Positions 1,677-18,103 of a stretch of 38,066 nucleotides of DNA are shown here, one piece after another. The notes under the pieces were generated by a model. It made no database searches and had not been told where the DNA came from. It saw only the letters and a program-made list of their open reading frames with translations. Source of the stretch: Accumulibacter sp. Its GTDB lineage: Bacteria; Pseudomonadota; Gammaproteobacteria; Burkholderiales; Rhodocyclaceae. The position numbers and the translations under genes were made by a program. The stretch spans positions 1 to 38,066 of the forward strand of contig JAEUOJ010000165.1 of the NCBI GenBank assembly GCA_016789495.1, given 5' to 3'. Position 1 is the stretch's first letter. Each line of letters opens with the position of its first letter.

Positions 1677-2099
1677 TTTGCCACCCGGCGATCAGTACGA
1701 GGCGAGCGACGTTTCCGGTATCCGCAAGACGTCGGGGATGCCCGACAGCCTGGCCATTCCGCTCCACGCCCAGCTTGGCCGCCTGAAGCGCCTGGCGCTA
1801 CCCTTGCTGGTCGCGCTGTTGGTCGGTTCCCTGAGCTCCGCCTTGTCTGCCGTTGCCTTTTCCCAGGTGAAAGGTGACGGCGCCGATCAAGGGTCGTCCG
1901 GCCGCGGCGGCCGAAATGGCGAAGGTAAATGGCTGCCCAGTATGGTGGAAGCGGCGACGCGAACGGCGCCGCCGTGGACGACGCGTCGTTGTTGTTTCGG
2001 CGTCAACGGAGCAGCAGGACACAATGGCACGCGCGCGATGGCTGGCATATCATCGCAGCTCACGATCCCGTCACCCGCCGAGCGAGTTTCCCGCTGGCC
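1677..2099. other. gene-poor stretch upstream of the conflict operon
   Basis: No convincing gene. A plus-strand frame from ATG 1738 encodes a plausible cytoplasmic N-terminus followed by one hydrophobic helix (LALPLLVALLVGSLSSALSAV, about residues 19-39). It then drifts into low-quality sequence and overlaps the next gene, so it is either a degraded membrane-protein start or chance. The promoter of the following operon should lie here, but I see no clear -35/-10 pair. Confidence 0.35.
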
Positions 2100-3461
2100 A
2101 TGCCACGTGTCGCCGACATCGCCGAGATTGAGCAGATCTTCCTGAGCGCCACCGCCCAGGACTGCCGGCAATACCGCGAAGCCGTGCGAGACTTCGTGCA
2201 GGGCAACGAGCCAGCGGCGAAGATCTCTCTGCAGGAGGACTGGGCTGCGGGCGGCGAGTTTGTATCTGCGGTCTGCTGTGAGCGAGTCGGGAAATGCGAT
2301 GCCTACATGGGTCTGTTTGGCCACCGTTACGGCTGGATCCCACCCGGTCTCACGAAATCGATCACGGAACTCGAGTTCCTCTGGGCGCTGGACCGCTGGC
2401 CGCAGCCGGTGCCGCCCATCTTCGTTCTGCTTCCGGAAAAGGGCAGCGAAGCCGACCAGAACTTGTCCGACTGGGCCAAGCCCCTGCTCGACAAGGAGTT
2501 CCCCGACGAACACGCGCGCGCCGAGGGAGTGCGTGCGCAACAGGAGTTCCTGGCGTCGGTCGTCACGTGGTTCGCGGACGGGCGCATCCTGGACTACTAC
2601 CAGAACCAGTTGCAGTTGGTCGGCAAGGCGCTTTCGCGCATTCAGCACTGGAATAAGAAACTCCTCCGGCAAGCGTACGCGGGCCGAAAGAATCCGATCG
2701 GCGACATCCCCGGCGAGGAGTTGGGACGCATCGGCCGCGAAGCGCAGCAAAGAGCCTTGAGCGAGGCGCTCGAAGCCTTCCGCGAACGCCAGGGACAGCG
2801 GGCGATCGCCATACTCGTGCATGGCCCCGAGAACCACGGCCAGCGCGAGTTCGCCGAATTCCTCTCGCGTTGGGACGACGAGTGGGAGGGCGGCGAGGTC
2901 TATCCCGGACAGCCCGCCGACCCCGACAGTCTCCCTTCCTTAATCTGTTGGGCCTGCGGCGAGCTTCGCCAACCGGTGCTCTGCGCCGCCGGCATCGACG
3001 CGCTGGCCGAGGTTCTCGCGGCCCGCCTCAGCCGTAGCTCGCTGGTCTTCGTCCAGCGCAGCGCCGGGCGACAAGAGGACCGGCTGGCGGCATTCCAGAG
3101 CCAGTTCTGGCAGCCGCTGCTGACGGCGCTCGGCGGCCGCTCGCCGGGCGGCAAGGGGCGCCTGTACTGGTTCGTGATCGAGCACACGGAACTCCCGCCG
3201 GATCCGGGACCGGCGATCCGCAGCGACGCGCTCGGCGCCGAAGACGTTGATTATCAACAACTCCTCGCGCTGCCGGCGCTCGGCGAGATCAACACCCAGC
3301 AGGTGCAGCGCTGGCTCAAGGAACTCAAGAAGAGTGCTGGCATGGCGCTCGACGAAGACCGCCGCCGCGAGATCGCCAAGCACGCCACGCAGCCCGACGG
3401 CAAGCCGTCGAATGTCTACAATCGCCTGGTTCTCGATGGTTTCTGGGCCAGCGCCACCTGA
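2100..3461 (+). CDS. DUF4062 protein with degenerate STAND-like (iSTAND) C-terminus
   Basis: A 453-residue protein, first gene of a four-gene operon. Residues ~10-100 form a DUF4062 domain: IFLSATAQDCRQYREAV at the N-terminus, then CDAYMGLFGHRYGWIPPG and SITELEF. DUF4062 is a Rossmann-like domain common at the N-terminus of NLR-like STAND proteins. Residues ~235-453 look like an inactive STAND module: a beta strand AIAILVHG leads into PENHGQREF where a Walker A loop would sit, but there is no GK[ST]. The start is uncertain. ATG 2100 lies directly before the DUF4062 fold; an in-frame ATG at 1929 has a better ribosome site (GAAGG), but the 57 residues it would add look non-coding. The family match is strong for DUF4062 and moderate for iSTAND. 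Together with the MoxR and vWA genes that follow, it fits a signal-receiving or effector-regulating role in a conflict system. Confidence 0.85.
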   Translation: MPRVADIAEIEQIFLSATAQDCRQYREAVRDFVQGNEPAAKISLQEDWAAGGEFVSAVCCERVGKCDAYMGLFGHRYGWIPPGLTKSITELEFLWALDRWPQPVPPIFVLLPEKGSEADQNLSDWAKPLLDKEFPDEHARAEGVRAQQEFLASVVTWFADGRILDYYQNQLQLVGKALSRIQHWNKKLLRQAYAGRKNPIGDIPGEELGRIGREAQQRALSEALEAFRERQGQRAIAILVHGPENHGQREFAEFLSRWDDEWEGGEVYPGQPADPDSLPSLICWACGELRQPVLCAAGIDALAEVLAARLSRSSLVFVQRSAGRQEDRLAAFQSQFWQPLLTALGGRSPGGKGRLYWFVIEHTELPPDPGPAIRSDALGAEDVDYQQLLALPALGEINTQQVQRWLKELKKSAGMALDEDRRREIAKHATQPDGKPSNVYNRLVLDGFWASAT

Positions 3462-3471
3462 GGTATACCCC

Positions 3472-4413
3472 GTGCCCGACGACAGTTCCGAAAAGACCTT
3501 CTCCGGTGACCAGTCCGGCTTCTACGTGGCCTCTTCACAGACGGCCGCCATCGTCAACCTGGCGATCCGGCTGGGGCGCCCGTTGCTCGTCGAAGGCGAA
3601 GCCGGTTGCGGCAAGACCCGCTTGGCGCACGCCGTTGCCAAGGAACTCGGCTTCGCCGATGGCCCGCTGGTCATCACCGTCAAGAGCACCAGCCAAGCCA
3701 AGGATCTGCTTTACCGCTTCGACGCGCTGCGCCGCCTGCAGGACGCCCAGAACCCGAAAAACCGGGACGCGGCCTGGGTCTATCCCTACATCACGCTCGA
3801 GCCGCTCGGCCACGCCATCCAGCAGGGCAGGCCCTGCGTCGTGCTGATCGACGAAGTGGACAAGGCCGACATCGACTTCCCGAATGACCTGCTCGACGTT
3901 CTCGACCGCTTCGAGTTCGACATCGAGGATCTGCCGCGCAACGAAAACGAACGCTGCGCCAAGACCAAGGGCTTTGGCCGGCACGTCACGGCGCCGGTCG
4001 ATGGCGTCAAGCCGATCGTCATCATCACCAGCAACCGGGAAAAGCAGTTGCCCGAACCCTTCCTGCGCCGCTGCCTGTATGCCCAGCTCGATTTTCCCGA
4101 GGACACCGCTATTCTCGAAGAGATCGTCAGGAAAAACCTCGACGCGCGCGTCGACGCGGTCAGCGACGCCCTGATCGCCGGCGCGGTGAAAAACTTCTGC
4201 CAGGTCCGCGCGCGTGGCCGGGAACTCAACATGCAGAAGCTGCCGGCGACCAGCGAACTCGTCGACTGGGTCCGTGTTCTCCATTGGCAGCAGCGCCGTG
4301 CCGAGGACGTCTCACCCGACAGCCTCACGGAGACCGATCAGGCGGTGCTGTTCAAGCTGCGCCAGGACATCGAACGCTACCGCGCACGCACGGCCGATGA
4401 GGCCGACCAATGA
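3472..4413 (+). CDS. MoxR-family AAA+ ATPase
   Basis: A 313-residue AAA+ ATPase of the MoxR group, which remodel client proteins together with vWA-domain partners. Visible motifs: Walker A GEAGCGKT (about residues 42-49), Walker B VVLIDE (123-128), sensor 1 with Asn in VIITSNRE (about 188), and Arg-finger region PFLRRC (about 196-201). The start is GTG 3472, ten bases after the previous stop, with GAGG at 3460-3463; longer in-frame extensions run through the upstream gene and are not credible. The gene ends 13 bases before the vWA gene. In ternary conflict systems MoxR is the conserved chaperone-like motor linking the vWA protein to the variable VMAP partner. Confidence 0.93.
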   Translation: MPDDSSEKTFSGDQSGFYVASSQTAAIVNLAIRLGRPLLVEGEAGCGKTRLAHAVAKELGFADGPLVITVKSTSQAKDLLYRFDALRRLQDAQNPKNRDAAWVYPYITLEPLGHAIQQGRPCVVLIDEVDKADIDFPNDLLDVLDRFEFDIEDLPRNENERCAKTKGFGRHVTAPVDGVKPIVIITSNREKQLPEPFLRRCLYAQLDFPEDTAILEEIVRKNLDARVDAVSDALIAGAVKNFCQVRARGRELNMQKLPATSELVDWVRVLHWQQRRAEDVSPDSLTETDQAVLFKLRQDIERYRARTADEADQ

Positions 4414-4426
4414 GCGGCCAGCGCGC

Positions 4427-5557
4427 GTGAGCGAAAAGCACCGCCTGCCGCCGCCGCTCCTGGGGCTGTTTCGGGAACTGCTCGCCAATGGCGTGCCGGT
4501 GGGAACGCGCGACTATCTCGACGGCTTGCGGGCGCTGCGGCTCGGTTTTGGGCAGGGCGACCGGCAGGCCTTGCAGGCTCTCGCGCTGGCGCTGTGGGCT
4601 CGCTGCGACGAGGAGCGCCGCCTCATCACGCGCTGGTTCGACGGCCTGCCGCTTCCCGGGCAGGTGCTGCTCGACGCCGTCGACGACGCCCTGACGACGG
4701 GCGCGGCTGCCGGCGATGACGAAGTCGCCGGCGAAGGGCAAGCGAGCGCCGCGCCGACGCGCCGAAAACCTGACGGCTCAACGCCGCCGACCGGCGAACC
4801 CCGGCCAGTCGTTCCCCCGGTCGAGGCGCGGGCGCGCGTCTCCTTCGCCGGCACGCACGCCGGCGGCGGCCTGCCGGTGCCGCGCCTGCCGGTCGAGCCG
4901 GTGATCGGCGAGGATTACGTGCTGCACCCGCAGACGCTGGTCAGCCTGCGCGACATGGCCGTCCTCTGGCGGCGCTACCGCCGCAGCACGCGCCGCGGAC
5001 CGCCCAGCGAACTGGACCTGGCGGCGACGATTCGTGAACGCTGCCGTCGCGGCGTGCTGGCGCAGCCTGTCTGTCGTCCGCGCCGCGCCAACAGCGCGCG
5101 CCTGCTGGTGCTCGCCGATACCAGCGCCAGCATGGACCCCTGGCGGCCCTTCCTGGCGACGCTGGCCGACTCGCTGCCGCTCGGTCGCCTGGCCAGCGCC
5201 GAGCTGCGCTATTTCACCAATCTGCCGCGCCGGCACCTTTTCGCCGACACCGATTTCGCTGACTCGCAGCCGTGTCGCGAGGTGCTTCGCCGCCATGCCG
5301 GCGCCGGCCTGCTCGTGCTCAGCGACGCCGGCAGCGCGCGCGGCTATCTGAACCGGCGGCGGGCGCTGCAGACCGCCGCCTTCCTCGCCGAAGCGGCCAG
5401 CCTGTTTCCGGCCATCGTCTGGCTCAACCCGATGCCGCGGACGCGCTGGGCCGGTACGACCGCCGCGCTGGTCGCCGCGGGCGCGAACGTCAGCATGCTG
5501 CCGCTCGATGCCGCGCACCTGTTGCGTGCCGTCGACATCCTGCGCGGCAACAAGTAG
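4427..5557 (+). CDS. vWA-domain protein (CoxE-like) of the ternary system
   Basis: A 376-residue protein. The N-terminal ~95 residues are helical. Residues ~95-150 form a low-complexity Ala/Pro/Gly linker. The C-terminal part is a von Willebrand A domain with an intact MIDAS start, LLVLADTSASMD (DxSxS at residues 231-235), and a later acidic strand LLVLSDAGSARG (Asp about 300). The start is probably GTG 4427, 13 bases after the MoxR stop; an ATG at 4410 overlapping that stop hits a TGA after six codons. vWA proteins bind ligands through a metal ion and work with MoxR ATPases. Spacing to the next gene is 9 bases, so cotranscription is nearly certain. Confidence 0.9.
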   Translation: MSEKHRLPPPLLGLFRELLANGVPVGTRDYLDGLRALRLGFGQGDRQALQALALALWARCDEERRLITRWFDGLPLPGQVLLDAVDDALTTGAAAGDDEVAGEGQASAAPTRRKPDGSTPPTGEPRPVVPPVEARARVSFAGTHAGGGLPVPRLPVEPVIGEDYVLHPQTLVSLRDMAVLWRRYRRSTRRGPPSELDLAATIRERCRRGVLAQPVCRPRRANSARLLVLADTSASMDPWRPFLATLADSLPLGRLASAELRYFTNLPRRHLFADTDFADSQPCREVLRRHAGAGLLVLSDAGSARGYLNRRRALQTAAFLAEAASLFPAIVWLNPMPRTRWAGTTAALVAAGANVSMLPLDAAHLLRAVDILRGNK

Positions 5558-5566
5558 CGCGCCGCC

Positions 5567-8236
5567 ATGCCTTACCCCGCCGCTCTCGGCCAACGCCCGC
5601 TCGAAGTCCGCGAAGCCTACGCCGCGCTCGAACAGTACGCCGCCGACTACGGGCGCGAAGCGCTGCTGCTCCTGATGCACGCGTCGGTCCCCGAGACGCT
5701 GCGCGCCGACCTGCTCGACCTGATCCGCGTGAACTTCCTGCCCGACCACCGCGCCGACCTCAGCCTCGATGCCGACGTCCTCTTCTCGCCGCTCGCCACC
5801 GGGCTGGGCCGTGGCTATTACCGCCTCGACGCGCAGGTGCGCTGGCACGGCCTGGCGCTGCTGCGCTCGCTGTACCGCGACGACGCGCGCCCGCGTGCGC
5901 GGCGCGTTGCCGAACTGCTTTGGCGCTACGTGCAGGCGATGGAGCGACGCGCCAGCCGCGCCGCCGACCTGCAACTCGCCGAATTCCTCGCCATCCAGCG
6001 CTGGGTCGCGCTCGCCTATCTCGAACCGGCGAACGCCGCACACGCCTTCGCCGACGCCCTGCGCCAGGCCGGCGAAGCGCCGGCGAGCGCGCTCCTGCGC
6101 CTCGGCGGGCTGACGTCGGCGATCGAGATGCCGCTCGCCAACGAGCAGGAACTGCTCGCCTACGCGAAGGCGATGGATGCGCTGGTCAGCGGCGACGACG
6201 AGCGCGCGCGAACCCTGGTGCAAGCGCTCGGCGATAACGAGATCCGGGTCGGTGACGTCGTGCTAAAGGCGCCGACGACGCTGTTGGCACGGCGCCAGCA
6301 GCAGGACGTAGCCAAAGGGGATGACGAGTCGTTGGCGAGGGCGCCGCGGCGCAAGGTCTGTCTGGTGCTGATTGGCGCCGGCAGGAAGGCGCTGCCGGAC
6401 GGCCGGGCTCCCGATCTCGACCAGGTCTTCGCGATGATACGCACGGGCGTCACGGGCTTGGACATGGACTGTCTGCGGCTCGACGATGTTCGTTCCGCGG
6501 ACGCTTCCGGGCGAGCGATCTACGAGCGCCTGCTCGACGCCGATCTGGTCGTTTGCGACTTGTCGCGTGACGACGATGCACTGGCTTACCTGCTCGGCGT
6601 CCGCTGGGCGCTGCGACCTTCGGGAACGCTGCTCGTCGCCGAGCAGACTTACCGCGGCAGCGTCGGCAACCTGACGCGGCGGCTGTTGCCTTACCAAGCG
6701 CAGGGCGACGGAATCGGCAGCGACGAGCGCGCGCGCTTCGCCGCCCGGCTGCGGGCCATCGTCGGCGAAGCCGACAACGACAGCCTGCGCAGCGACGTGT
6801 ATGCCGACGGTTCGCTGAGTCCGCCCGAGCGTGTCGATTCCGGCGAACCCACGGAAGCGTCGGCAACGCCGGAGGAATCACGCCGCGCAGGCAGTCGCGG
6901 TCGCTGCCTCGTTCTGCAGGCTTTCGGAAGGAAGTCCGCTTTGAGTACGGGGCGGACCCTCTTGCTCGACGAGTCGTATCCGATCATCCGCGAGGCCGTC
7001 GACAGCGTCGGCCTCGAGTGCGTTCGCTTCGACGTTCTTGAGTCGGAAATCATCGGCGACCCGATGTTCCGCCTGCTTCAGGAAGCGGAACTGGTGATTG
7101 CCGACGTGTCGAGCAAAGTTGAAGACGTGTTGCTGGCCCTTGGCATCCGCTTCGGTCTGTGCTCGCGGCATACTCTTCTGATCGCCGCGCTGGGTTCGGT
7201 TCCGGTGCAGTTGGGCGCGTTGCGCGTCCTGCACTACCAGCCCATGGATAGGTCTCCTGGGGTCGAGAATGCCGCCGGATTCCGCGCCGAACTCGTCCAC
7301 TCGATCAAGCAGGCGCTGACGACAAGAACAGTCGATAGCCCCGTCTACCTTGCTTTGCCGGGCCTGCGGCCGCCGCGCCGCTTGCCCGATCCGGTGAGCG
7401 AAGAAAGCGGCGTGCCCGTCAGCGAAGCGACGGTCGACACGCCCGAAAAGCCGCCTTGGGCGAGCGCCGTTGGCAGCGACGAGTACGGACGCTATGCCGA
7501 AATCACCATCGATGGCGTTCGCCAGCGCTTCCGCTGGATCGAGCCGGGAAGCTTTGAGATGGGTTCGCCGGCCAGTGAGCCGGGGTGTGGCTCTGACGAA
7601 GTGCAGCACACCGTGACGCTGAGCCGCGGCTTCTGGCTGGCGGACACGGCCTGCAGTCAGGCTTTTTGGCAGGCGGTAACGCGAAGCAATCCGAGCGATT
7701 TCAAGGAGGTTCCGCGCAACCCGGTCGAGAACGTCAGTTGGAACGATGCGCAGTCCTTCGTCGCCGAACTCAATCGTCACCTGCCTGGCCTGCAGGCGCG
7801 GCTGCCGAGCGAAGCCGAATGGGAGTACGCCTGCCGCGCCGGGACGACGACGCCGTTCTCGTTCGGTGGGAACATCTGGCCCGAACAGGTCAACTACGAC
7901 GGCAACCGTCCCTACGCGAGCGGCAAGAAAGGGCGGTACCGCGCACGCACCGTTCCGGTCGGGTCGCTGCCGCCGAATGCCTGGGGCTTGTACGAGATGC
8001 ACGGTAACGTCAGCGAATGGTGTGCCGACTGGTACGGTTCATACCCGATGGGAGCCCAAACTGATCCCCGAGGTCCGCAGACAGGCGTTTACCGCGTGTT
8101 GCGCGGCGGCTCGTGGTTCTACTACGGCAGGTACGTGCGTTCTGCCTACCGTAGCAGGTACGTGCCGGGCGAGCGCAGCGACGGCAGCGGGTTTCGGCTC
8201 GCCCTAGGTCCAGCAGGGCCGGCGGAGCCGGCCTGA
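5567..8236 (+). CDS. VMAP-like multidomain sensor with C-terminal FGE/C-type-lectin domain; probable DGR variable protein
   Basis: An 889-residue protein, last gene of the operon. Residues ~1-255 are helical and include an LLDLIRVNFLPD...DVLFSPL segment like those in vWA-MoxR-associated proteins. Residues ~262-400 and ~444-590 are two tandem domains of the DUF4071/deoxyribosyltransferase-like type (CLVLIGAGRK...ADLVVCDLS...LGVRWALRP and CLVLQAFGRK...AELVIADVS...LGIRFGL). Residues ~640-882 form an FGE-sulfatase/C-type-lectin fold: RFRWIEPGSFEMGSP, NPVENVSWNDAQSF, LPSEAEWEYACRAGT, WGLYEMHGNVSEWCADW, RVLRGGSW, GFRLAL. The catalytic Cys pair of true formylglycine-generating enzymes is missing, so it is a binding scaffold rather than an enzyme. 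The segment after RGGSW is Tyr/Ser-rich with NNC codons, typical of DGR variable regions. Start ATG 5567 lies 9 bases after the vWA stop. Confidence 0.88.
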   Translation: MPYPAALGQRPLEVREAYAALEQYAADYGREALLLLMHASVPETLRADLLDLIRVNFLPDHRADLSLDADVLFSPLATGLGRGYYRLDAQVRWHGLALLRSLYRDDARPRARRVAELLWRYVQAMERRASRAADLQLAEFLAIQRWVALAYLEPANAAHAFADALRQAGEAPASALLRLGGLTSAIEMPLANEQELLAYAKAMDALVSGDDERARTLVQALGDNEIRVGDVVLKAPTTLLARRQQQDVAKGDDESLARAPRRKVCLVLIGAGRKALPDGRAPDLDQVFAMIRTGVTGLDMDCLRLDDVRSADASGRAIYERLLDADLVVCDLSRDDDALAYLLGVRWALRPSGTLLVAEQTYRGSVGNLTRRLLPYQAQGDGIGSDERARFAARLRAIVGEADNDSLRSDVYADGSLSPPERVDSGEPTEASATPEESRRAGSRGRCLVLQAFGRKSALSTGRTLLLDESYPIIREAVDSVGLECVRFDVLESEIIGDPMFRLLQEAELVIADVSSKVEDVLLALGIRFGLCSRHTLLIAALGSVPVQLGALRVLHYQPMDRSPGVENAAGFRAELVHSIKQALTTRTVDSPVYLALPGLRPPRRLPDPVSEESGVPVSEATVDTPEKPPWASAVGSDEYGRYAEITIDGVRQRFRWIEPGSFEMGSPASEPGCGSDEVQHTVTLSRGFWLADTACSQAFWQAVTRSNPSDFKEVPRNPVENVSWNDAQSFVAELNRHLPGLQARLPSEAEWEYACRAGTTTPFSFGGNIWPEQVNYDGNRPYASGKKGRYRARTVPVGSLPPNAWGLYEMHGNVSEWCADWYGSYPMGAQTDPRGPQTGVYRVLRGGSWFYYGRYVRSAYRSRYVPGERSDGSGFRLALGPAGPAEPA
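8102..8200 (+). other. putative DGR variable region (VR)
   Basis: Codons 846-878 of the lectin-domain protein. After the conserved RVLRGGSW, the candidate variable positions read TTC, TAC, TAC, GGC (851-854), then TAC (856), TAC (861), AGC (863), TAC (865) and AGC, GAC, GGC, AGC (871-874). All end in C, as expected if the template carries AAC codons mutated at their adenines. Between them are invariant-looking Arg, Val, Ser, Ala and Pro codons, and the segment ends with GFRL, the usual end of DGR variable regions. The pattern is seen directly; the template repeat and reverse transcriptase are not in this window. Confidence 0.7.
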
Positions 8237-8243
8237 GCAGGGA

Positions 8244-8287
8244 GTCTGGCCGTATGGCCGTCCGGGACGGACGGCTGTCGGCCAGAC
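8244..8287 (+). repeat. long GC-rich hairpin just after the variable protein gene
   Basis: An outer stem of 8 bp (8244-8251 with 8280-8287), a short imperfect middle, and an inner 7-bp stem (8257-8263 with 8269-8275) closing a 5-base loop. It starts 7 bases after the stop codon and about 45 bases after the variable region, the position of the hairpin/cruciform that promotes retrohoming in DGRs. It is not followed by a T-run, so an intrinsic terminator is less likely, though possible. A smaller GCCGGC/GCCGGC hairpin lies at 8219-8233. Confidence 0.75.
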
Positions 8288-8388
8288 GGGGCAGCCCGCC
8301 GGAGGCGCTGAGGCAGCAGACGCGGTGCGGGGGTCAGGTCTTTCTTTTTTCCTCTTGGCGCCCTCATTCGCCGAGGCGCACTATCTTG

Positions 8389-8606
8389 CTCAGGGGGAAG
8401 CCGCTGGCTGCTCGCTTGCGGCCTGTGGTCTTGTTTCCGGTTCTGGCATGGCTGACCGCCTTTTCCCTGCCTAGGGTGCTTCTACCGTAAAGGGAAAGCG
8501 GAAAAATTTGGTTAAGCCTTCTGCCCGCGAAGGCCGGGCAGGGTTCAGTCCGAGCCGGGTTCGGACAGGTGGCTCTCCATGTCCATGCGCACATGCAGGA
8601 CGCGGA
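8389..8606 (+). repeat. direct repeat copy A (with 10517-10733)
   Basis: About 218 bases that reappear with roughly 85 percent identity by eye at 10517-10733 in the same orientation. Shared blocks include CTGCTCGCTTGCGGCC, GTTCTGGCATGGCTGAC, GTGCTTCTACCGTA and GGACAGGTGGCTCTCCATG. Copy A includes the last ~20 codons of the first parE gene (minus strand) and its downstream flank. The two copies bracket both parDE pairs and the recombinase gene. Confidence 0.8.
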
Positions 8607-8856
8607 GAACCTCATTGGAGCCGTCGTCAATCGTGCGGTAGAAAACAACATGGCGTTCGATGGCATATTTGCGGATGCCGGGCCTGATTTCGGGGCAGTC
8701 ACGGCCTTTCAGGGGATTGGCTGCCAGTTGGTGAAAGCTGGTGTCCAGCAGACCGAGATAGCGGTTTCGTTGTTCGCGCCCCCATGCGTCGGCAGTGTAG
8801 CGCCCGATCGATTCCAAGTCGGTCAGGGCCGCATTGGTGAGGACGAAACCGGACAT
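8545..8856 (-). CDS. parE: ParE/RelE-family toxin
   Basis: A 103-residue toxin of the ParE type (RelE/ParE superfamily); classical ParE poisons DNA gyrase. It shows LTNAALTDLESIGRYTADAWG at the N-terminus, a central RNRYLGLLDTSFHQLAANPLKG helix pair, then IRKYAIERHVVFYRTID and RVLHVRMDMESHL, all family-typical. The ATG at 8856 shares one base with the stop codon of the upstream antitoxin gene, giving translational coupling. Full length, with no visible damage. Confidence 0.92.
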   Translation of the reverse strand: MSGFVLTNAALTDLESIGRYTADAWGREQRNRYLGLLDTSFHQLAANPLKGRDCPEIRPGIRKYAIERHVVFYRTIDDGSNEVLRVLHVRMDMESHLSEPGSD

Positions 8857-9101
8857 CAGGTGGCGCTTTCCGCGTCCAGTCTGTCAATCAGACCCTGCAG
8901 GGAATAGTGTTCGGCCCGACCGCTGTTCTCACCGTCGATCAAAGCCTGTCGCAGGGCGGCCAGCCGGGTTTCCTGCTCTTCCAGAATCCGCAACCCGGCC
9001 CGCAGCACTTCACTTGCGGAACCGAAACGCCCCTCTGCAACCTGCCGGGCGATGAACTGCTCGAAATGCGGGCCGAGCGTAACGCTGGTGTTCTTGTGCA
9101 T
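8856..9101 (-). CDS. parD: ParD-family antitoxin
   Basis: An 81-residue antitoxin: an N-terminal ribbon-helix-helix domain (TSVTLGPHFEQFIARQVAEGRFGSASEVLRAGLRILEE) followed by a flexible C-terminal toxin-binding tail. It should bind the neighbouring ParE toxin and repress its own promoter through the palindrome at 9126-9160. The ATG at 9101 follows a CAGGAGG ribosome site (minus strand, 9107-9113). First gene of the parDE pair, with a 1-base overlap to the toxin. Confidence 0.92.
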   Translation of the reverse strand: MHKNTSVTLGPHFEQFIARQVAEGRFGSASEVLRAGLRILEEQETRLAALRQALIDGENSGRAEHYSLQGLIDRLDAESAT

Positions 9102-9125
9102 GTGACCTCCTGAGGTGAGACCCCA

Positions 9126-9160
9126 TCATATACCATCAAATATTATTTTTTGGTATATGA
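9126..9160. promoter_or_regulatory. 10-bp inverted repeat upstream of parD, likely operator
   Basis: TCATATACCA at 9126-9135 is matched by a perfect reverse complement, TGGTATATGA, at 9151-9160, separated by a 15-base AT-rich spacer. The site is 25 bases upstream of the parD start and lies in an AT-rich promoter-like stretch that contrasts with the GC-rich surroundings. Ribbon-helix-helix antitoxins autoregulate through such palindromes. Confidence 0.7.
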
Positions 9161-9207
9161 AATGGGTCAGCTATGCCCTGCCTCGGCAAGCAGGCGGCCC
9201 GTGGTGT

Positions 9208-9501
9208 TCAGGGCTCGCCAAAAAGAGCGTCAATGTCACGGGCGCTGTGCAAGATACGCTCGACGCGGACAGTGGTGTCACCGGCGCTGTAGGCGATGAG
9301 GTAACGACCGTAGGGCAGGATGCGAAGACCGGAAAGAAGTTCAGGGCGCAGCGCGCCGATGCCGGGATGATGGACAAGCCTCATGCAAGCCTCGCGTAAC
9401 TCGCGGACAAAGCTGACCGCCCGCAGCGGATTATCCTGTGCGATGTAGTCGCCGATGTCTTCGAGGTCGCGCTCACTTTGCGGGGAGAAGTCCAGACGCA
9501 T
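9208..9501 (-). CDS. second ParE-family toxin
   Basis: A 97-residue ParE-type toxin: LDFSPQSERDLEDIGDYIAQDNPLRA, LVHHPGIGALRPEL, LRILPYGRYLIAYSAGDTTVRVERILHSARDI. It is a different lineage from the toxin at 8545. The best start is ATG 9501, which shares one base with the antitoxin stop (TGATG), exactly as in the first pair; a TTG one codon upstream is less likely. Confidence 0.92.
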   Translation of the reverse strand: MRLDFSPQSERDLEDIGDYIAQDNPLRAVSFVRELREACMRLVHHPGIGALRPELLSGLRILPYGRYLIAYSAGDTTVRVERILHSARDIDALFGEP

Positions 9502-9770
9502 CAACGCCCGTCCCGCTCTCGCGCCATGTCGAGATATTTGGCCTCCAGCCGGTCGAAGACCTCCGCCGCCGGGCGACCGGGGCCGCTGTCAATCCCCTGC
9601 TGAATGTCCTGTCGGAGCTGAGCCAGCGTCGCGGCCCGCACTTGGTCTTCCCGCTCCATGAGGCGCAGGGCTTCGCGCACGACCTCACTGGCGGAGTTGT
9701 AGAGGCCAGATGAAACCTTGGTGCGCACCATCTCTTCAAGCTGGGGGGTCAAGTTGATGTTCATCTGCAT
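9501..9770 (-). CDS. second ParD-family antitoxin
   Basis: An 89-residue ribbon-helix-helix antitoxin. Start ATG 9770 gives MQMNINLTPQLEEMVRTKV, followed by the family pattern SGLYNSASEVVREALRLME and an acidic C-terminal arm. GAGG lies at a good distance upstream on the minus strand. An in-frame extension to 9812 adds 14 residues without family support. It pairs with the toxin at 9208-9501. Confidence 0.92.
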   Translation of the reverse strand: MQMNINLTPQLEEMVRTKVSSGLYNSASEVVREALRLMEREDQVRAATLAQLRQDIQQGIDSGPGRPAAEVFDRLEAKYLDMARERDGR

Positions 9771-9827
9771 GGACTGGCCTCGTGATGCGTGACGGTCATC
9801 CAGATGTAGCACGTTGCACCATCATAG

Positions 9828-10397
9828 TCAATCATTGACAACTTGCGCCGTCTTAGCCAGCAACCGGGCCACGGTCGAGGGATGTACCCGAAACAACCTG
9901 GCGGCGTCGGCCCCGGTCTTGCGGCCTGACTGCACTAGGTCGATAACCTCTTTCTGCTGCTGGGGAGAAAGCTTGGGACGGCGGCCCCCTACCCTGCCTT
10001 CCTGCCGGGCGGCCTCAAGCCCGGTGCGGGTGCGCTCGCGCAGCATGGCGCGCTCGAACTCGGCGAAGGAACCGACAATCTGCATCATCATCCGCCCGGC
10101 GGGGGTGGCGGTATCAATGGCCTCGGTCAGGCTCTGGAAATCGGCCCCTGCCCCCTTGAGCTTTTCGAGGATCAGGAGCAGGTCTTTGAGGGAACGGGAC
10201 AGGCGGTCAAGCTTCCACACCACCAGCACGTCACCCTTGCGCAGGTGGTCGAACAGCCTATGCAGTTCCGGGCGATCCCAGCGCCCCCCGGAAGCCTTCT
10301 CCTGAAAGACCCTTTCACACCCGGCGGCCTCAAGCGCGCCGATCTGGAGTGCGGTGTCCTGCTCTTGGGTAGAAACGCGGGCGTAGCCGAAGCGCAT
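9828..10397 (-). CDS. serine recombinase (Tn3-type resolvase/invertase family)
   Basis: A 189-residue serine recombinase. The catalytic domain begins MRFGYARVSTQEQD (nucleophile Ser9), followed by ERVFQEKASGGRWDRPEL, GDVLVVWKLDRLSRSLKDLL, AGRMMMQIVGSFAEFERAMLRERT, and a C-terminal helix-turn-helix (GADAARLFRVHPSTVARLL) preceded by GRVGGRRPKL. Length and motifs match Tn3 resolvases and DNA invertases. ATG 10397 is chosen because it gives the family N-terminus; the frame stays open upstream into the repeat at 10517-10733 but that is not coding. No transposase of the Tn3 type is nearby, so it may be a remnant of a larger transposon or plasmid segment. Confidence 0.93.
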   Translation of the reverse strand: MRFGYARVSTQEQDTALQIGALEAAGCERVFQEKASGGRWDRPELHRLFDHLRKGDVLVVWKLDRLSRSLKDLLLILEKLKGAGADFQSLTEAIDTATPAGRMMMQIVGSFAEFERAMLRERTRTGLEAARQEGRVGGRRPKLSPQQQKEVIDLVQSGRKTGADAARLFRVHPSTVARLLAKTAQVVND

Positions 10398-10471
10398 GGT
10401 TGCATATTCCTGTTGCCATTCGGCGCAATAGTGCAATACCTTTTTGCAACGTGCAAGCTCTTGGGGACAAA

Positions 10472-10506
10472 GACAACTGGGGACAGACCACGGATATGCC
10501 TTGATT
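10472..10506. repeat. 35-bp direct repeat (copy 1; copy 2 at 14324-14358)
   Basis: Thirty-five bases starting GACAACTGGGGACAGACC and ending ATGCCTTGATT recur at 14324-14358 with one difference (G versus A at position 9). Same orientation. The two copies enclose the IS3, intron and second antitoxin cluster. Confidence 0.85.
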
Positions 10507-10516
10507 CTAGATGGGT

Positions 10517-10733
10517 CTCGGGGGCAGCCGCTGACTGCTCGCTTGCGGCCCGTGGTTTTGTTTCCAGTTCTGGCATGGCTGACTGCATTTCCCCTGCGCA
10601 TGGTGCTTCTACCGTAGAAGGAAAGCGGAAAGAATTGGTTAAGCCTTCTGTCGGCGAAGGCCGGGTGGGGTTCAGGCCACGCTGGGTTCGGACAGGTGGC
10701 TCTCCATGTCCATGCGATCATGCAGGACGCGGA
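10517..10733 (+). repeat. direct repeat copy B (with 8389-8606)
   Basis: Imperfect duplicate of 8389-8606, same orientation. On its minus strand 10672-10733 encodes a 20-codon fragment of a ParE C-terminus (RVLHDRMDMESHLSEP then stop) that matches the first ParE except at a few positions. Similarity stops six bases before the end of the IS3 element. Confidence 0.8.
10672..10733 (-). pseudogene. parE 3' remnant
   Basis: Only the last ~20 codons of a ParE toxin remain, followed by a TGA. The peptide matches the C-terminal segment of the toxin at 8545 (shared MDMESHLSEP). The rest of the gene is absent; the neighbouring IS3 element begins six bases away. Confidence 0.6.
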
Positions 10734-10774
10734 TGGAGTTGCCCCCATCCCGTGGACGGTTTTGGACTTGATTC

Positions 10775-11860
10775 TCAAGCGGGCTGATTGTACTCCGGAG
10801 CAGGGTTATCCACGGGGCCGCCGCAAGCCCCTCTCGGGCTGGCGGCGAGCGGCCCGGTGGATAACCCGTGTGCGGGGGGCACAGGCCGGACTGAGGCAGT
10901 CTTGCCTTGCTCCTCGAACTTGACCGGCGACAGATAGCCCAGCGCGGAATGACGACGACGCGGGTTGTACCAAGCCTCGATCCAAGTGAAGACAGCTAGG
11001 CGAGCCTCGGTTTTGCTCTTGAACGTCCGACGGTCGAGCAATTCGCATTCGAGACTGGCGAAGAAGCTTTCCGCCATTGCGTTGTCGTAGGCATCACCGA
11101 CAGTGTCCATCGACAGTCGCACGCCCATGTCTTGGCCGCGCTTACCGAAGGCGAGCGAGGCATACTGGCTCCGCTGATCGCTGTGGTGAATGACATTTTC
11201 CGGCCGCCGCGTCGCGATCGCCATGTTCAGAGCGGCAAGCACGAGTTCGGTCCGCATGTGCTCGCCGATGGACCAACCCACGATACGCCGGCTCCAGGCG
11301 TCGATGACGACCGCCAGATAAATGAATCCGGCCCACGTCGGCACGTACGTCATGTCGGCCACCCACAACTCGTTCGCCGCGGTCGTGGCAAAGCGGCGGC
11401 GTACGAGGTCCGGTGCGCGCGACTGGCTCGCGTCACGCTGGGTCGTCACGACGAAACCCCGACGGCGGCTCACGCCGCGAATGCTGGCTTCCCGCATCAA
11501 TCGGGCAACCCGTTTGTTGCTGACCTGGACACCTTGCTCGATCAGTTCCGCCCGGATTCGTGCGCGTCCGTAGGTTGAATCCGAAGCCGCATGGATCGCG
11601 CGGATGTTTTCGATCAGCACGGCGTTTCCCATCGCGCGCGGGCTGGGCTTGCGCGAATACTAGGCATAGAAGCCGCTGGCCGAGACGTCGAGCACGCGGC
11701 ATAACGTGCGAACGGGGAAGTCGGCCTGATTCGCCATCACGAGTTCGAAGAGTTCGACAAACTCGCATCGGTCTTTCTGGCGAACCAGGCCATAGCCTTT
11801 GCCAGAATGTCGCGCTCCATCTTGGGTTGCGGCGTAGCCGGGCCAGCTCCTCGTTCTCAC
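10775..11860 (-). pseudogene. IS3-family transposase orfB, interrupted by a stop codon
   Basis: The DDE integrase-like transposase. The main open part (11632-10775) holds the HTH_21-like lead-in NIRAIHAASDSTYGRARIRAEL and the rve catalytic core: WVADMTYVPTWAGFIYLAVVID, VIHHSDQRSQYAS, and a NAMAESFFASLE segment with the final Glu. An in-frame TAG at 11660-11662 splits the protein: ...LDVSASGFYA, stop, then YSRKPSPRAMGN. Relatives have Trp there (TGG to TAG). The usual GSQY reads RSQY here, a further departure. The protein is unlikely to be made at full length. Confidence 0.85.
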
Positions 11861-12050
11861 CGTTGCTCACCGACGCCTTGCCGCGGACTGTCTTTCCCTG
11901 GTCACGAGCGGCATCGCCCAGCCAGTTGCTGATCGTTTGCGCGGTCGGACCGAACTCACGCGACAGCTCTGCCGGCTTTCTTCCCGCCGGCGCCAGTTCG
12001 ACAATCTGTTGGCGGAACTCCGCCGGATAGGGTGCTCGGGTCTTTGGCAT
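11770..12050 (-). pseudogene. IS3-family orfA (HTH), frameshifted
   Basis: Begins at ATG 12050 with a GGAG ribosome site: MPKTRAPYPAEFRQQIVELA, then SREFGPTAQTISNWL, a helix-turn-helix of the IS3 orfA type. After EELARLRR the expected leucine-zipper end (MERDILAKAMAWFARKT) is in another frame, so a 1-2 base indel near 11830 breaks the gene. The intact end frame stops at 11770-11772. Confidence 0.8.
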
Positions 12051-17003: not shown

Positions 17004-17325
17004 GGAATCAGGTCATCTTCAGCCGCGACTGTTTGGGGCTCCTCGTCTCTCCGGACACGGGCAGCAGCGCCATTCGCTGCGCCCGGAGCGCCGCTCAAGG
17101 CGCCTGCCGTCCACTCGCCAGAAAACACGCCTTGCGGTCTGGATCGGAGCTAGATTTCGTGATGCACCGTATCAGGAGTCGCCACAGCCAAATCTCACCT
17201 CCTGCCAGTGCTTGGTCGAGGGGACATTTCTCAGTCTCAGCGACCAGTTTTTCCGCGACGGCCACAGCGACTTTACGAGAAGCCGCCGTCGGGCCGCCAT
17301 GACTCAACGCACTCCTGGAGGAGCC
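17004..17325. other. stretch upstream of cstA remnant, no gene seen
   Basis: A plus-strand frame at 17033-17302 has no recognisable features. The region should carry the promoter of the cstA-like gene; no clear -35/-10 pair is evident. Confidence 0.4.
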
Positions 17326-17649
17326 GTGAATATCGTTTCCAAACATGCCATCTGGTGGCTTTTGACGGCGGTCGGGGTATTCTCCCTCGGCACCGTAGCG
17401 CTATCGCGGGGCGAAACCATCAACGCCTTATGGATAGTCACCGCTGCCGTTTCCATCTACCTCGTCGCCTACCGCTACTACAGCCAGTACATCGCTGACC
17501 AGGTGATGCAACTCGACCCGACACGGGCGATCCCGGCCGTTCGCCACAACGACGGCCTCGATTACGTGCCGACCAACAAATACATCCTGTTCGGTCACCA
17601 CTTCGCGGCGATCGCCGGCGCCGGTCCGCTGCCCGCTACGCGCCGGTGA
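17326..17649 (+). pseudogene. CstA/BtsT-family peptide/pyruvate transporter, N-terminal fragment
   Basis: The first ~100 residues of a CstA-family carbon-starvation transporter: WWLLTAVGVFSLGTVAL, RGETINALWIV, YLVAYRYYSQYIADQV, TRAIPAVRHNDGLDYVPTNK and FGHHFAAIAGAGPL. Start GTG 17326 follows GGAGGAGCC, a strong ribosome site; an ATG at 17299 is possible. Family members have about 690 residues, but here the frame ends five codons after GAGPL (PATRR stop). The remainder, including most membrane helices, is gone. Confidence 0.85.
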
Positions 17650-17924
17650 CAGCACCTACTGCCATCAGGTGGTCGCGCCGACCGGCTGCGCACGATGACG
17701 AGATTTCGTCCATCCTGCTTGAGGCCGGTGAGGTTGACCTGGAGGCGATCGGTGCCTTCGTTCAGTCGTTGATCGACGAACTCGGCGACGAATTGCTGCG
17801 CTACAAGGGCATCCTGGCGATTCCTGAAGACGACCGGAAGCTGATTTTTCAGGGCGTCCAGCGCGTCGCCGGCTTCGATTACGGTGAGCCGTGGGCGCCC
17901 AAGGAAGCACGTGCCTCGCGCTGA
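17646..17924 (+). pseudogene. CobW/YjiA-family GTPase, C-terminal fragment
   Basis: From about 17693 the frame reads DDEISSILLEAGEVDLEAIG, AFVQSLIDELGDELLRYKGI, LAIPEDDRKLIFQGVQRVAG, the C-terminal domain of COG0523/CobW metal-chaperone GTPases such as YjiA. The GTP-binding N-terminal domain is absent. The end is also damaged: after ARASR a TGA occurs, while LIGRRLPE, the expected end, follows in another frame. In Enterobacteria yjiY/btsT, yjiX and yjiA form a cluster, so this fragment and the cstA fragment look like the two outer ends of that cluster. Confidence 0.8.
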
Positions 17925-18103
17925 TCGGAAGACGGCTGCCGGAAACGCAGCGGGCGCCGGACGGCAATAGACACGGTTCCTCGAGACTCCGAACCGTTCG
18001 ACGTGTCAGCTGAGAAAGCGCTTCGCTTTCGGCTGGATCATCGACTGCCTTTGAACAGAGTGGAATCGACTTCGGTTGCGCCACGACCCGAAGTCCTGCG
18101 GTT

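Follow-up and report, generated by a model that had tools for sequence, protein, structure and literature searches.

Positions 8093–8203 of the window, by which we mean the complete 38,066-nucleotide stretch of DNA analyzed here, very likely constitute the variable repeat (VR) of a diversity-generating-retroelement (DGR) target gene (Table 1). The window corresponds to contig C154 of the Accumulibacter MAG G000 (3.26 Mb, 203 contigs, 87.6% complete). The VR is homologous to template repeats (TRs) of congeners, its changes are specific to template adenines (template-A sites), its end differs from that of the TRs, and it is followed by hairpins. In the proposed course of events, a reverse transcriptase (RT) would copy a non-coding TR rich in AAC codons, random bases would be placed opposite the TR adenines, and the cDNA would replace 8093–8203, guided by the IMH-like end and hairpin 1, perhaps also by hairpin 2. 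The C-terminal C-type-lectin (FGE-like) domain would thereby gain a variable face for ligand binding. The IMH function of the VR end is proposed here by analogy with the DGR prototype, and the hairpins would take part in homing.

Table 1. Features of the iSTAND operon, the candidate DGR target gene and its 3' end (positions in the window).
Feature	Position	Strand	Basis and remarks
DUF4062-iSTAND protein	1929..3461	+	PF13271 and PF19995; start codon uncertain
AAA ATPase, putative MoxR-like	3247..4413	+	PF00004, PF07728; true start probably further in
CoxE-type vWA protein	4214..5557	+	PF05762; true start probably further in
Target gene, 889 aa	5567..8236	+	ORF; full-length ortholog G007:C35, 88% identical
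FGE-sulfatase (C-type-lectin fold) domain	7535..8203	+	PF03781; best solved-structure match 2y3c
DGR variable repeat (VR), very likely	8093..8203	+	Gapless alignment to six congener TRs; variable core 8117–8188
IMH-like 3' VR end, VR type	8189..8210	+	GGTC where TRs have GCTC
Hairpin 1	8217..8233	+	GGCCGGC-GGA-GCCGGCC; 7-bp stem, GGA loop; in frame before stop
Hairpin 2	8244..8287	+	Inner stem with GGA loop, outer stem interrupted, no T-run; fold

Several congeners carry an RT (motif GLPIG.LTSQHFAN) together with an AAC-rich copy of the 3' end of FGE-like genes, and these genes flank both. A pattern on the conserved flanks, applied to selected loci of the genus, yielded 24 VRs (those of the window and its ortholog included) and 6 TRs, told apart by their GGTC or GCTC ends; because it was drawn by flank pattern from selected loci, this set is no census. 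The TR of G025:C63, which is 6 bases shorter, was missed by the pattern, and two VRs of other length from G004:C88 were excluded from the TR comparison. As is characteristic of DGR targets, the window VR is homologous to these AAC-rich TRs and differs from them mainly at template adenines: in comparison with the six equally long TRs, 12–14 of 22–26 template-A sites differ, compared with 5–11 of 85–89 other sites, with Fisher P values from 2e-7 (G019:C57) to 7e-5 (G007:C63). For the two closest TRs, the differences amount to 13/23 and 14/25 at template-A sites and to 5/88 and 6/86 at other sites. The likeness to DGR targets extends to the IMH-like end, which differs from that of the TRs, and to the inverted repeat (the hairpin core) behind the VR. 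Judging from these alignments, the window VR belongs to the TR/VR family of the congeners. However, ten VR–TR pairs of equal length that share a locus (two each from G002, G022, G023, G019, and G007:C63) have either 0 (six pairs) or 1 (four pairs) mismatches at non-A sites, and the window VR, having at least 5, was therefore not made from any of the six TRs as they stand.

The same pattern emerged from the comparison with the ortholog, which stems from another species and a genome rated 100% complete (contig C35 of G007). With the template-A sites set by the TR of G023:C4, which the ortholog VR fits better (2/86 non-A mismatches) than the C63 TR of its own genome (11/89), the VRs of the window and this one ortholog differ at 18/25 template-A sites and at 8/86 others (P = 1.7e-9). 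Over the rest of the gene, 209/2556 sites differ, which equals the rate of the non-A sites within the VR (P = 0.69). Ordinary positive selection on an FGE-like binding loop, acting without any retroelement, would agree with the dN/dS between the two genes (1.4 in the VR core, 0.43 outside) and with C-ending codons being common in this GC-rich gene. Yet differences concentrated on template-A sites are what targeted A-mutagenesis leaves, whereas loop selection alone is not expected to spare non-A sites, which here have diverged as much as the remainder of the gene; moreover, TRs and DGR RTs of the same family occur in the genus. We regard positive selection as refuted by this A-specificity and assign it a very small probability.

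The preliminary description of this DNA had read twelve NNC codons within 8117–8188 as a DGR signature and as descendants of AAC codons in a template. All twelve are present and in frame, as are the flanking RVLRGGSW and GFRL, and the descent from template AAC codons is supported by both the congener TRs and the ortholog comparison. Ten of the twelve correspond to AAC in the TR of G004:C88, while the codon at 8186 is ATC there; for the codon at 8126, each of the six TRs compared has GGC. As a signature, the codons hold up by comparison with the templates but not by count alone: 15/24 codons in 8117–8188 end in C, compared with 44.5% gene-wide (binomial P = 0.059), and 104/866 24-codon windows of the target gene reach 15 C-ending codons, so that these endings are nothing unusual for this gene. 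Codon endings as proof of DGR origin were rejected, not being significant alone.

The VR forms the C-terminal end of a predicted C-type-lectin/FGE ligand-binding domain, the arrangement seen in DGR targets. By sequence, the best solved-structure match is 2y3c, Treponema denticola variable protein 1 (E = 4.2e-26), which we take to be the DGR protein TvpA. The VR of TvpA occupies the same C-terminal place, but TvpA is devoid of the long N-terminal part of the window protein. Three pieces taken from the first 630 aa of the latter were compared with Pfam and yielded no match, even with E values as high as 1 allowed. The TvpA DGR system is named in PMC7159879. A relative of the target gene in the single-contig genome G015 (C1:1860181-1862275) is split over two reading frames of 634 and 779 aa and therefore looks interrupted.

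Behind the VR, the preliminary description had noted a long GC hairpin without a T-run, seven bases past the stop codon (8234–8236). This is hairpin 2, which indeed starts at 8244 and lacks a T-run; the DNA of 8201–8300 folds with z = -4.73 (0/200 shuffles as stable), and no terminator-like site was called in 8000–8500 (0 found, 0.6 expected). The core shared among VRs, however, resides not in this hairpin but in the nearer hairpin 1, which had been overlooked; it begins 13 bases past the VR and encodes the last residues of the protein. This core, CCGGCGGAGCCGG, occurs within 300 nt behind 22/24 VRs and 0/6 TRs. In G000, SCCGGCGGAGCCGGS has a single copy, located in hairpin 1, and the hairpin core as a genome-wide repeat was rejected. 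Across 8 genomes, SCCGGCGGAGCCGGS has 15 copies, 11 of them behind identified VRs; as the reversed pattern has 9 copies, the count alone is modest, and the evidence lies in position, not in number.

Hairpins of this kind are concentrated behind VRs throughout the set. Stems of at least 10 pairs with a 3-nt loop number 24 in 7.2 kb (the 300 bases behind each of the 24 VRs), compared with 8 in 213 kb elsewhere in the same loci. With stems of at least 6 pairs, at least two GGA-loop hairpins follow 19/24 VRs, the window having two and the richest VR five, while a GGA-loop hairpin follows 0/6 TRs, five of which have a single 3-nt-loop hairpin with another loop. Likewise, with both strands taken together, GCGGAGC has 53 occurrences in the 3.6 kb behind VRs and none in the 0.9 kb behind TRs, compared with 51 in 427 kb of other sequence. 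Covariation was assessed in the 8/24 VRs that share one alignable 3' type, which does not include the window: three helices pair in 97.9% of cells (slid structures, 24–51%), and in five pairs both partners have changed, a number reached by 0/500 shuffles, although related rows can exceed shuffles without structure. Over all 24 VRs, the first GGA-loop hairpin begins between +12 and +43 relative to the VR end, whereas the stop codon varies from +12 to +192 and once lies further away. Given this wide variation, many GGA-loop hairpins are located inside the reading frame, and, the hairpin offset being steady, it is the VR, not the end of the gene, that the first hairpin accompanies.

When the comparison was broadened to 156 FGE ends, a perfect hairpin of at least 8 pairs within 250 nt was found at 21/41 non-TR ends whose locus has a DGR RT and at 23/90 ends whose locus has none. 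By the same measure, none was found at five VR ends of three Zoogloea/Desulfobacterales DGR loci (L172, L180, and L181), nor at several Accumulibacter VR ends. About 90–130 bases behind the VR at 7551 in locus L087 (G007:C63), a long G run is followed by a C run, perhaps an assembly artifact.

Directly behind the VR genes of G007:C35 and G010:C5, hairpin 2 recurs, as an identical copy in the former and with 82% likeness in the latter. As a query, it had matches in 7/28 genomes, those beyond these two being shorter or weaker; among these others, G016:C7 is near a VR gene and G024:C223 is not at an identified VR. The latter would also suit a transcription terminator or a stabilizer of the mRNA 3' end unrelated to the VR, as would the location of hairpin 2, which directly follows the stop codon and lies where the homology with G007 ends; a terminator function has been proposed for hairpin clusters (PMC8355165). 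We consider this a serious possibility, although on balance we doubt it: hairpin 2 is without a T-run, the first GGA-loop hairpins keep their distance from the VR while stops vary and are often in frame, and they are missing behind all six TRs.

GNA triloops make unusually stable DNA mini-hairpins. In the Bordetella phage BPP-1, one hairpin with a 4-nt GRNA loop is needed for homing (Guo et al. 2011, PMC3240598), and the Accumulibacter sites resemble this target site in having a GC-rich hairpin close behind the VR, a G...A loop, and an IMH-like end. They differ from it in that BPP-1 is described with a single hairpin with a 7–10 bp stem, whereas the Accumulibacter hairpins have 3-nt GGA loops and often stand several in tandem. 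We tentatively propose, with the chances close to balanced, that Accumulibacter DGR targets are marked by tandem GGA-triloop DNA hairpins (up to five), partly coding and kept by compensatory stem changes, as a distinct form of target site that could mark remote genes for homing in trans. Our literature search, largely confined to openly accessible papers, recognized no description of tandem hairpins at DGR targets.

The preliminary description had called for a whole-genome search for a TR and a DGR RT, whose absence from the complete genome was to refute its reading. Neither was found in G000; since this genome is only 87.6% complete, we take their absence to bear on present activity and not on origin. 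No TR was found in G000 by BLAST, nor did one emerge from a pattern search that left the variable sites free and tolerated at most 3 mismatches, and no cognate TR matching all non-A sites was recovered from this incomplete MAG; a TR query had matches in 25/28 genomes of the genus, its sole match in G000 being the window VR itself. A congener DGR RT query, which had matches in 21/28 genomes (some clearly other RT types at low identity), likewise revealed no DGR RT in the incomplete G000. The lone RT_1 match of this genome (L022 1–775, contig C24) is a retron-like RT fragment at a contig edge, its two open pieces being separated by a stop that falls between the matched portions. It was rejected as a DGR RT: both pieces score best on retron models, below the cut-offs of those models, and it reads QGAPTSP where DGR RTs read GLPIG.LTSQ.

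Being apart from any RT or TR found in G000, the window gene is likely a remote or orphan target, and we think it probable that it is now frozen because its DGR was lost or became separated from it. In G007, the C63 DGR was considered as a trans source of the ortholog VR and rejected for its present TR. For Dore et al., trans activity was indicated when every non-A site matched (PMC10907252), and by this measure C63, with its 11/89 mismatches to the ortholog VR but 0 to its own two VRs, does not serve the ortholog VR now. The TR-like repeats on G007:C60 and C1 were compared by protein letters only. VR genes of the same family on G024:C271 and G010:C5 were also noted, the DGR RT query giving no match in G024 and a weak, group II-like match in G010; in view of this lack of a clear DGR RT match, orphan VRs may recur in the genus.

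The window gene could instead be an active remote target, 8093–8203 still being diversified in trans by an RT and a TR missing from the assembly, which we judge rather unlikely but by no means far-fetched. The MAG is fragmented and incomplete, and trans-diversified remote targets have been reported elsewhere (PMC10907252; PMC7517822). In addition, the 96 bases of 8195–8290, comprising the VR end and both hairpins, are identical in G007:C35 despite a gene difference of approximately 8%; however, this identity is not unique, as 5622–5745 is identical as well. Further points against present activity are that in the 100%-complete G007 the C63 TR fails to fit the orthologous VR and that G024 and G010 harbor VR genes with no or only a weak RT match, so we continue to favor a frozen target.

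The target gene closes an operon in which Pfam matches place an iSTAND protein (PF19995), an AAA ATPase (AAA families), and a CoxE-type vWA protein (PF05762) together; the ATPase is assigned to the MoxR subfamily putatively, from its place and partners and not from a tree. The order of the four genes is the same in G007:C35, and the homology between the two contigs spans 2024 to 8290, stopping at both ends though both contigs continue. Ternary conflict systems of iSTAND, MoxR, and vWA proteins have been published, with an FGS (FGE) domain in approximately 22% of iSTAND systems (Kaur et al. 2020, PMC7159879). Like these, the window has the three core components, with MoxR by context, in a single operon and an FGE domain; while that study describes effector domains on the vWA protein, the FGE domain here is on a separate protein of 889 aa. 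Going by domain content, the operon of DUF4062-iSTAND, MoxR-like, vWA, and FGE proteins is of this published type. PADLOC returned weak matches only, for five window proteins. Weak, below-cut-off matches to the anti-phage families MadB (3247–4413, E = 1e-23) and MadC (4214–5557, E = 0.0015) were also observed.

In a study of multicellular bacteria, DGR-varied proteins with a lectin fold have been proposed as sensors of MoxR-type systems (Dore et al. 2024, PMC10907252), and by analogy the 889-aa protein may be the sensor of the iSTAND-MoxR-vWA conflict system. The window shares with the DGRs of that study an FGE/C-type-lectin target and a MoxR/vWA neighborhood, and remote targets are described there; it differs from them in its third component, iSTAND, and in that no RT or TR was found in its genome.

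Beyond the hairpins, homology to G007 stops just before a region (8393–12050) with a 214-nt repeat (8393–8606 and 10520–10733, 88%), a ParE-type toxin gene, a resolvase, and an integrase-core (rve) transposase gene. Outside the operon, 17068–17944 is 89% and 79% similar to two stretches farther along the G007:C35 contig.

DGRs were noted in Accumulibacter in 2012 (PMC3521204), multiple related ones have since been ascribed to the genus (Dore et al. 2024, PMC10907252), and remote targets are known in cyanobacteria (PMC7517822); the window target thus belongs to an already known kind. What our literature search did not turn up is the tandem triloop hairpin array. The present case adds a remote or orphan DGR target within an iSTAND-MoxR-vWA operon, and its approximately 25 template-A positions provide a sharp set of sites for testing activity. 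RT-first surveys are blind to remote or orphan targets, as Roux et al. say of theirs (PMC8144416). If tandem triloop hairpins do mark targets, they would provide a sequence handle for finding remote ones and a way to ask what defines DGR target sites outside phages.
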